A DNA stretch of 64,000 nt from Brachyspira aalborgi (GTDB taxonomy: Bacteria > Spirochaetota > Brachyspiria > Brachyspirales > Brachyspiraceae), in the NCBI RefSeq assembly GCF_008016455.1, contig NZ_SAXU01000001.1, positions 2,252,423-2,316,422 on the forward strand, in the 5' to 3' direction. Of the stretch, positions 41,756 to 42,925 are shown piece by piece. The notes beneath the pieces are model-generated. The model was given only the letters and a program-made list of their open reading frames with translations, was not told the origin of the DNA and did no database searches. Made by a program: the position numbers and the translations under genes. Each line of letters opens with the position of its first letter. Within the stretch, counting starts at the first letter, position 1.

Positions 41756-42724
41756 AGGCTTGCAAAATAAAATTGTCTCTCCGCCCCAAGGCGAAAAAGT
41801 TCTTATATAATATTCGTAATCTTCGTTAATAACATTTTTTATAAATATTGGAATATTGTAAAAATCTTCCATAAAAAGTTTTCCGCCATGATAAATTGCA
41901 ATCGCTAAAAATGGCTTGAATTTTTTTATTGTTTTTATAGAGCCTTCTAATATATTTTTTTCAGCACCTTCGACATCCATTTTTATATAATCTATTTTTT
42001 CAAAATTATTTTCTTCGACAAATTTATCTATCGTAATTGCATTTTTCTTTATAGTCGGAGTATTTTCTATCATTGAAATAAAATCAATTTCTTTTTCGGC
42101 GTTTGAAAGTAAAATATTTTTTGTAATTATATTATTTAATTTATATTTATCTTTAATTTTTTCTAATATTTTAAAAGCGTAATCGTCTGGCTCAAAAGCG
42201 TATATTCTTGCTTTATTAGAACATTTTTTTGAAAAGAAATAAGCCGTATCGCCTTTCCAAGCGCCAATGTCGAATATTGTAGCGTCTTCTTTTACTTCAA
42301 AAATATTTTTAACATCGTATTGTTTTAATGAAATTATATGGAATAATGCAAAAGCTCCTACTTCTTTTGGCAAGAAAATTCTTTTTGTAATAAGAAAAAA
42401 TATCATTTTTCTAATCCAAAAAATTGTTGAAATAGTTCCATATTTTATACTAAAAAATAATTCTCTTTTAAAATTTTGATGAACATTCGGATAAAATGCT
42501 AACATATATCTGTATCTAACTATTTTTTCAAATAATTTTTTTGAATATTCTTCTTTAAGCATATCGTAAAATATATTAAAATTTTCTCCTTCAATTAAGG
42601 CTTTGATAAAATTATCTTCGCTTTCGATTTTTTCTATTTTATTTTTATCGAATTTTTTATTAATTAATTTTCTGCATTTGTTTAATAATTCTTGCGATAT
42701 AGTTTTTTTATTATCGATTTGCAT
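41744..42724 (-). CDS. FkbM-family methyltransferase
   Basis: A 326-aa AdoMet-dependent methyltransferase. The AdoMet motif IFDIGAWKGDTAYFFSKK is near residues 147-164, IYAFEPDDYAFKIL follows, and the FkbM motif DYIKMDVEGAEKNILEGS is near 248-265. FkbM enzymes O-methylate sugars of glycans, including surface polysaccharides. The first ~120 residues form a helical extension. ATG 42724 has GGGAGAA seven bases upstream. A pentanucleotide leader switch precedes it and is in the early-stop frame here. Confidence 0.9.
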   Translation of the reverse strand: MQIDNKKTISQELLNKCRKLINKKFDKNKIEKIESEDNFIKALIEGENFNIFYDMLKEEYSKKLFEKIVRYRYMLAFYPNVHQNFKRELFFSIKYGTISTIFWIRKMIFFLITKRIFLPKEVGAFALFHIISLKQYDVKNIFEVKEDATIFDIGAWKGDTAYFFSKKCSNKARIYAFEPDDYAFKILEKIKDKYKLNNIITKNILLSNAEKEIDFISMIENTPTIKKNAITIDKFVEENNFEKIDYIKMDVEGAEKNILEGSIKTIKKFKPFLAIAIYHGGKLFMEDFYNIPIFIKNVINEDYEYYIRTFSPWGGETILFCKPKKI

Positions 42725-42786
42725 AAATTTCTCCCGAATAAGAATAAATGTTTAATGAGTTAACATAATTTTGTTTTAAAATTAAA

Positions 42787-42891
42787 TTATTGAATTGAAT
42801 TGAATTGAATTGAATTGAATTGAATTGAATTGAATTGAATTGAATTGAATTGAATTGAATTCATGTTGGCTCTCAAAACTTTTATAATCAT
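42787..42891 (-). CDS. Leader ORF 3 with pentanucleotide repeat (early-stop frame)
   Basis: On the minus strand an ORF from ATG 42891 (MIIKVLRANM) enters the AATTC tract (repeating IQFNS) and stops at TAA 42789-42787 as the tract ends. With one more unit, the frame would instead stay open through NNLILKQNYVNSLNIYSYSG to TAA 42713-42711, 14 nt inside the FkbM gene (overlap of start and stop). The third frame stops within three codons. The predicted transcript start coincides with ATG 42891, so the message may be leaderless; an internal ATG at 42864 is an alternative start. Confidence 0.55.
   Translation of the reverse strand: MIIKVLRANMNSIQFNSIQFNSIQFNSIQFNSIQ
42789..42861 (-). repeat. Pentanucleotide tandem repeat (AATTC)14.6 in leader ORF 3
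   Basis: A 73-bp perfect tract, the longest of the five. On the coding (minus) strand the unit is AATTC, as at 26548. Read on the other strand it contains TGA, so orientation relative to the gene is the translatable one in both cases. Confidence 0.95.
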
Positions 42892-42897
42892 AGAGAA

Positions 42898-42925
42898 ATT
42901 ATAAATTAAAATAAAAAAATGTCAA
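42898..42925 (-). promoter_or_regulatory. Promoter of leader ORF 3 and the FkbM gene
   Basis: On the minus strand: TTGACA (42925-42920), 16-bp spacer, TATAAT (42903-42898). Confidence 0.78.

Follow-up and report, generated by a model that had tools for sequence, protein, structure and literature searches.

Phase-variable control through a leader peptide has been described for the pilus loci Pil1 and Pil3 of Streptococcus gallolyticus, where read-through of a strong terminator depends on GCAGA repeats within the leader peptide, as established with mutants and chloramphenicol (PMC3894217). Transcription starts 390 bp before pilA, two of the three phases are ON, and with 21 or 23 repeats the ON leaders stop near or within the terminator, which is intrinsic and has a dG of -18.7 (PMC3894217). 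Pentanucleotide leader switches have been described for these two pilus loci of one Streptococcus. Papers on such leader switches in Brachyspira were not found, with subscription journals largely outside the search.

We analysed a 64-kb stretch of Brachyspira aalborgi DNA (referred to as the window), in which a short leader ORF containing a pentanucleotide tract precedes a gene for an FkbM-family methyltransferase. We propose, with a probability of about 0.78, that this locus is a slipped-strand phase switch residing in the leader ORF, and that expression requires translation of the leader to extend to the gene start. The locus comprises the following features, given in window positions:

42898..42925, minus strand: sigma-70 promoter TTGACA-16-TATAAT (TTGACA 42925-42920, TATAAT 42903-42898), a 12/12 match
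42787..42891, minus strand: FkbM leader ORF as sequenced, in the predicted OFF phase, from start ATG 42891-42889 to stop TAA 42789-42787
42864-42862, minus strand: second leader ATG, in frame with the first
42789..42861, minus strand: AATTC tract of 14.6 units (14 full), 100% identical, reading NSIQF
42725..42788, minus strand: leader-FkbM spacer of 64 nt, with one frame open as far as the gene start
42731..42735, minus strand: putative FkbM ribosome-binding site GGGAG, 6 nt 5' of the ATG
42711..42713, minus strand: TAA ending the leader at 15 (or 12, 18) units, giving a 14-nt overlap with FkbM
41744..42724, minus strand: FkbM-family methyltransferase (PF05050, 1.1e-19), 326 aa

The Methyltransf_21 domain of the FkbM product scored 71.7 bits against a curated cut-off of 22.7, and family membership is therefore met. 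An earlier note on this DNA had placed the leader stop at TAA 42789-42787 for 14 units and at TAA 42713-42711, 14 nt into FkbM (ATG 42724), for 15 units; these and all its other coordinates for the leader were correct when checked against the minus-strand sequence. It had also pointed to the AATTC unit shared with a second leader; in the tract of that leader (26548-26599) the unit indeed lies in sense orientation as well, and the opposite orientation, GAATT, would introduce TGA. Two further loci of the genome have AATTC as their unit. All three minus-strand frames of the tract are free of stops, and in the spacer the two frames other than the open one meet a stop no more than 5 nt from the end of the tract. 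Depending on the phase, the leader stops at -1, +75, or +4 from the tract end (14, 15, and 16 units, respectively), so that two additional units lead to a stop 4 nt past the tract. A tract of 12 units would serve equally to one of 15 (-2 or +1 relative to that sequenced). No in-frame fusion of the leader to FkbM occurs in any phase, and the FkbM coding sequence itself lacks the tract. Thus, a non-triplet repeat is located inside a leader ORF between promoter and FkbM, and its unit number alters how far the leader reaches toward the gene. A stop about 10-20 nt from the downstream start, as in coupled gene pairs, is attained only at 15 (12, 18) units, and coupling itself is inferred.

According to the proposed mechanism, a message from the 12/12 promoter would start at or near the leader ATG. 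Ribosomes, whose use of the leader is likewise inferred, would then cross the AATTC tract and leave it in a frame given by the unit number modulo 3, as can be read from the sequence. Slippage is assumed to change the unit number; only one genome per species was available, without data on variation among isolates. At 12, 15, or 18 units the whole spacer would be translated to a stop 14 nt inside FkbM, and we infer that translation then passes on to the FkbM start, with the RNA remaining covered, as the ON state. In both other phases, the leader would end no more than 5 nt from the tract and leave the spacer bare, and FkbM would presumably be poorly expressed due to lost coupling and/or Rho-type polarity; Rho is encoded in the genome. 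By this inference, the locus as sequenced (14 units) is OFF.

The layout of promoter, pentamer leader, and gene is that of pil1 and would also suit an attenuation mechanism, in which an intrinsic terminator between leader and gene would be melted by the ribosome on the leader only if the phase yields a long leader. However, no terminator-like hairpin was found in the 64-nt FkbM spacer. Rfam yielded no match for a known structured RNA. The start region of FkbM is not unusual in its folding (accessibility of 0.50 compared to a control mean of 0.47; folding z of -0.01), and the idea of a leader RNA sequestering the FkbM ribosome site accordingly received no support. The same result speaks against the phase switch we propose: with its own GGGAG and a start region that is not unusually folded, FkbM might be translated without coupling.

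The AATTC tract itself cannot be a product of chance, but the coupling frame at the FkbM locus, taken alone, can be. When the 64-nt spacer was dinucleotide-shuffled, one or more frames extended to the gene start in 71% to 80% of the sequences, and 36% had an open frame with the other two closed early. An open frame at this single locus is thus also expected for a neutral microsatellite that happens to lie upstream of FkbM and has no effect. As the FkbM spacer alone is uninformative, we searched for other arrays, and significance comes from a set of about 30 loci. The genome sample amounted to 864 kb, consisting of the window and 40 stretches of the same genome (2.5 Mb), and pentamer arrays were required to be perfect and to have at least 4 units. 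Pentamer arrays numbered 36 in this sample and heptamer arrays 4, whereas tetramer arrays were absent; scaled to the genome, this amounts to about 100 pentamer arrays. From each of three other Brachyspira genomes, 100 kb was sampled, and each of these samples had one array or none. Thirty of the 40 sampled arrays were assigned by hand to a leader and a following gene, with paralogues included and hence not independent; those left out were intragenic, located at gene ends, or without assignment. Within the window, the set includes the following sister switches:

26537..26701, plus strand: AATTC x10.4 (26548-26599), leader ATG 26537, predicted ON phase as sequenced
26691-27803, plus strand: GT10 fucosyltransferase (PF00852) behind the AATTC x10.4 leader
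750..961, plus strand: ACAGT x5.4, leader ATG 750, start of a signal-peptide protein gene at 961
49404..49656, plus strand: CAAGC x10.6, leader ATG 49404, gene start 49656
56443..56610, plus strand: TACAA x7, leader ATG 56443, gene start 56608

In the AATTC x10.4 leader, TAA 26699-26701 overlaps the start of the downstream gene at 26691. One additional unit would result in in-frame read-through into the gene for the ACAGT x5.4 leader, in a stop 5 nt before the gene ATG for CAAGC x10.6, and in an ATGA overlap with the gene for TACAA x7.

Across the set, a phase reaching the gene start exists for 29 of the 30 array leaders, compared to 6.9 expected from shuffled spacers; the sole exception is leader L089:15846, for which no phase reaches its gene. 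When each spacer family was represented by a single member, 13 of 14 reached the gene start where 3.4 are expected (P about 6e-14). At 16 of the 30 loci (2.0 expected), a single frame is open to the gene and each of the other two meets a stop no more than 25 nt from the tract. All 30 leaders are preceded by a promoter (9-12/12 match), and at loci whose unit contains a stop in one orientation, the stop-free orientation is the sense orientation in every case (16/16). These set-wide statistics argue against a neutral microsatellite. They bear equally on the notion that the tract acts by its length or by factor binding, with the reading frame being irrelevant. Repeat switches of such a spacing type are known, for example that of meningococcal nadA (PMC2791445). 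However, the FkbM tract is located 3' of a complete promoter, and an open frame, a stop-free orientation, and closed alternative frames were all observed, none of which a spacing effect predicts. We regard an effect of spacing as very improbable. OFF loci lacking one unit are possibly in excess over those lacking two, although paralogues share their history.

The array set also bears on the transcript start, which the earlier note had predicted on the leader ATG. At FkbM, the first ATG is located 7 nt past the -10 element, with six bases in between, and the predicted start falls on its A, as had been claimed. The suggestion of a leaderless message remains plausible, since the first ATG lies 6-9 nt past the -10 element in 11 of the 30 array leaders, but the arrangement is not special: 8 of 51 ordinary promoter-gene pairs have a spacing of 5-10 nt. 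An FkbM transcript beginning on the leader ATG is thus likely, judged by promoter spacing, but nothing out of the ordinary. A transcript start 3' of the tract, which would have refuted the predicted switch, has no support in the sequence; the best promoter match in the spacer was 7/12.

Substitutions within spacer families showed no excess at third codon positions (133/139/113 for family I and 198/257/259 for family III). Given this lack of codon-position bias, we rejected a conserved leader peptide; it is the frame, and not the peptide, that appears to be selected.

The nearest relative among 26 Brachyspira genomes is B. catarrhinii, whose FkbM is 76% identical. Promoter, both leader ATGs, and spacer of the B. 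catarrhinii FkbM locus align with those of the window locus, and from leader ATG to gene ATG the tract is the only indel (4.6 compared to 14.6 units). The frame homologous to the ON frame is open, with a TAA at +8, and this copy is likewise in the predicted OFF phase. In all seven other resolved B. catarrhinii spacers, 111-360 nt in length, one frame remains open as far as the gene start; for four of the seven, shuffled sequences rarely or never match the open frame (p of 0.01 or less). Several of the resolved spacers appear to carry inserted material. The spacers L112, L115, and L121 (307-360 nt) contain apparent dispersed-repeat insertions and still have one frame open to the gene. No leader and tract were found at the FkbM orthologues of the remaining Brachyspira genomes, and no variant copies were found in viral contigs. 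Conservation of the open frame across species despite a ten-unit difference in tract length is a second argument against a neutral microsatellite, which we consider highly unlikely. Taken together, the 30-locus set and the conservation in B. catarrhinii support the phase-variable coupling of leader and FkbM proposed in the earlier note; a change in expression is unproven.

How the OFF state is brought about is less certain. Some spacers of the set have a hairpin ahead of a T-rich stretch, as attenuation would require, and in the spacer family of AAGCA and relatives the hairpin is formed by different but matching stems (CAAGGA/TCCTTG, CAGAGA/TCTCTG, CGAATA/TATTCG, and CGGG/CCCG); this family may use its hairpin. 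However, few spacers beat their shuffles, and attenuation does not require ON frames to continue to the gene start, yet they do so, in the TACAA/CACTA family for example about 85 nt beyond the hairpin. Intrinsic attenuation as the general mechanism was rejected at FkbM, where a terminator is missing, and is weakly and inconsistently supported over the set; we consider it unlikely. In the spacers L111, L114, L118, L122, L132, and L052, a hairpin of the form TTATC-stem-loop-stem-TTT(A/G)GTTAT precedes lipoprotein-type genes by about 33 nt; it occurs with several different matching stems, and its total lengths differ by multiples of three.

Alternatively, the leader might act solely by relieving Rho-dependent polarity, with start-codon coupling being irrelevant. 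This is a sub-case of the proposed switch, as the leader frame still decides. At about a quarter of the array loci, the leader reads in frame into the gene without a stop at its start, which fits relief of polarity better than stop-and-restart; such read-through loci, leading into signal-peptide genes, cannot use stop-and-restart and indicate that what matters is the passage of ribosomes through the spacer and not merely termination at the start codon. Relative to the gene, ON stops occur in each of the three frames, and Rho is present, both as expected for polarity. However, the 64-nt gap at FkbM is short for Rho loading, and ATGA overlaps are found at the ends of many ON leaders, though an overlap of this kind follows of necessity wherever A is the first letter of the second codon. 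Polarity as the only mechanism is therefore possible but doubtful. Returning to the phase switch as a whole, we rank coupling and/or Rho polarity first and intrinsic attenuation second as the cause of OFF-state silencing; the mechanism is unproven.

Further repeats were observed in other positions. An 11-G run at window positions 59024-59034 splits a SAM methyltransferase (58598-59059 and 59047-59400; PF08241), which is frameshifted in the present sequence; the run is a phase-variable tract of the classical intragenic type. Pentamer arrays of the AGCAG type occur at gene 3' ends (L036:4974-5067, L041:14931-14977, L080:12758-12782, and L088:13372-13439), each followed by the conserved element TAATGTTTGAATATGCTTATCGAAAA, which has 5 genome copies; their appearance suggests either a mobile repeat or a switch of another kind. 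At L037:9884-10144, an AGAGA x52 array is located at the end of an ORF, and one phase leads to an ATGA overlap with the next ORF. In another Brachyspira (L060:9229-9298), an AGCAC x14 array begins a few bases past the ATG of a 1047-aa ORF and is an ordinary intragenic phase-variable tract.

Judged from the reading frames, gain or loss of one repeat probably turns the FkbM methyltransferase on or off. One spirochete genome appears to contain tens of instances of this layout, located 5' of genes for methyltransferases, glycosyltransferases, and lipoproteins. We favour only slightly a wider reading, in which this gut spirochete has a genome-wide set of about 100 leader ORFs that slip independently of one another. 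Each would switch a surface or glycan gene, without an intrinsic terminator, according to whether or not ribosomes pass through the spacer as far as the gene start, and phase-variable coupling or polarity would then be a general regulatory layout. If thirty switches act independently, about a billion combinations of surface states would result. Ordinary gene annotation would miss the switches because the tracts are located outside annotated genes. Any long-read sequence suffices to predict whether each gene is ON or OFF, which makes the model directly testable.

Compared to known systems, the FkbM locus shares with H. influenzae lic, lex, and mod a repeat whose slippage shifts the reading frame for surface-modifying genes; in that type, however, the tract resides inside the regulated coding sequence (PMC2651432, PMC6479036), while the FkbM tract is outside and does not qualify as intragenic. 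As in meningococcal nadA, the tract is positioned upstream of the coding sequence, but it is predicted to be transcribed, lies 3' of an intact promoter, and is frame-structured, and thus does not meet the definition of a promoter-spacing switch. With coupled ABC-transporter gene pairs (PMC3711429), it has in common an upstream stop that overlaps or touches the downstream start, with the difference that coupling at FkbM would itself be phase-variable. The closest likeness is to Pil1/Pil3: a pentanucleotide tract is located within a short leader ORF in the interval between promoter and gene, leader length is set by the unit number modulo 3, the longer leader is expected to be ON, and a surface structure is controlled. 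In contrast to Pil1/Pil3, FkbM lacks the strong intrinsic terminator and has a single predicted ON phase of three, in which the leader ends inside the gene start, and the two loci of that system compare with an estimated hundred arrays per genome here.
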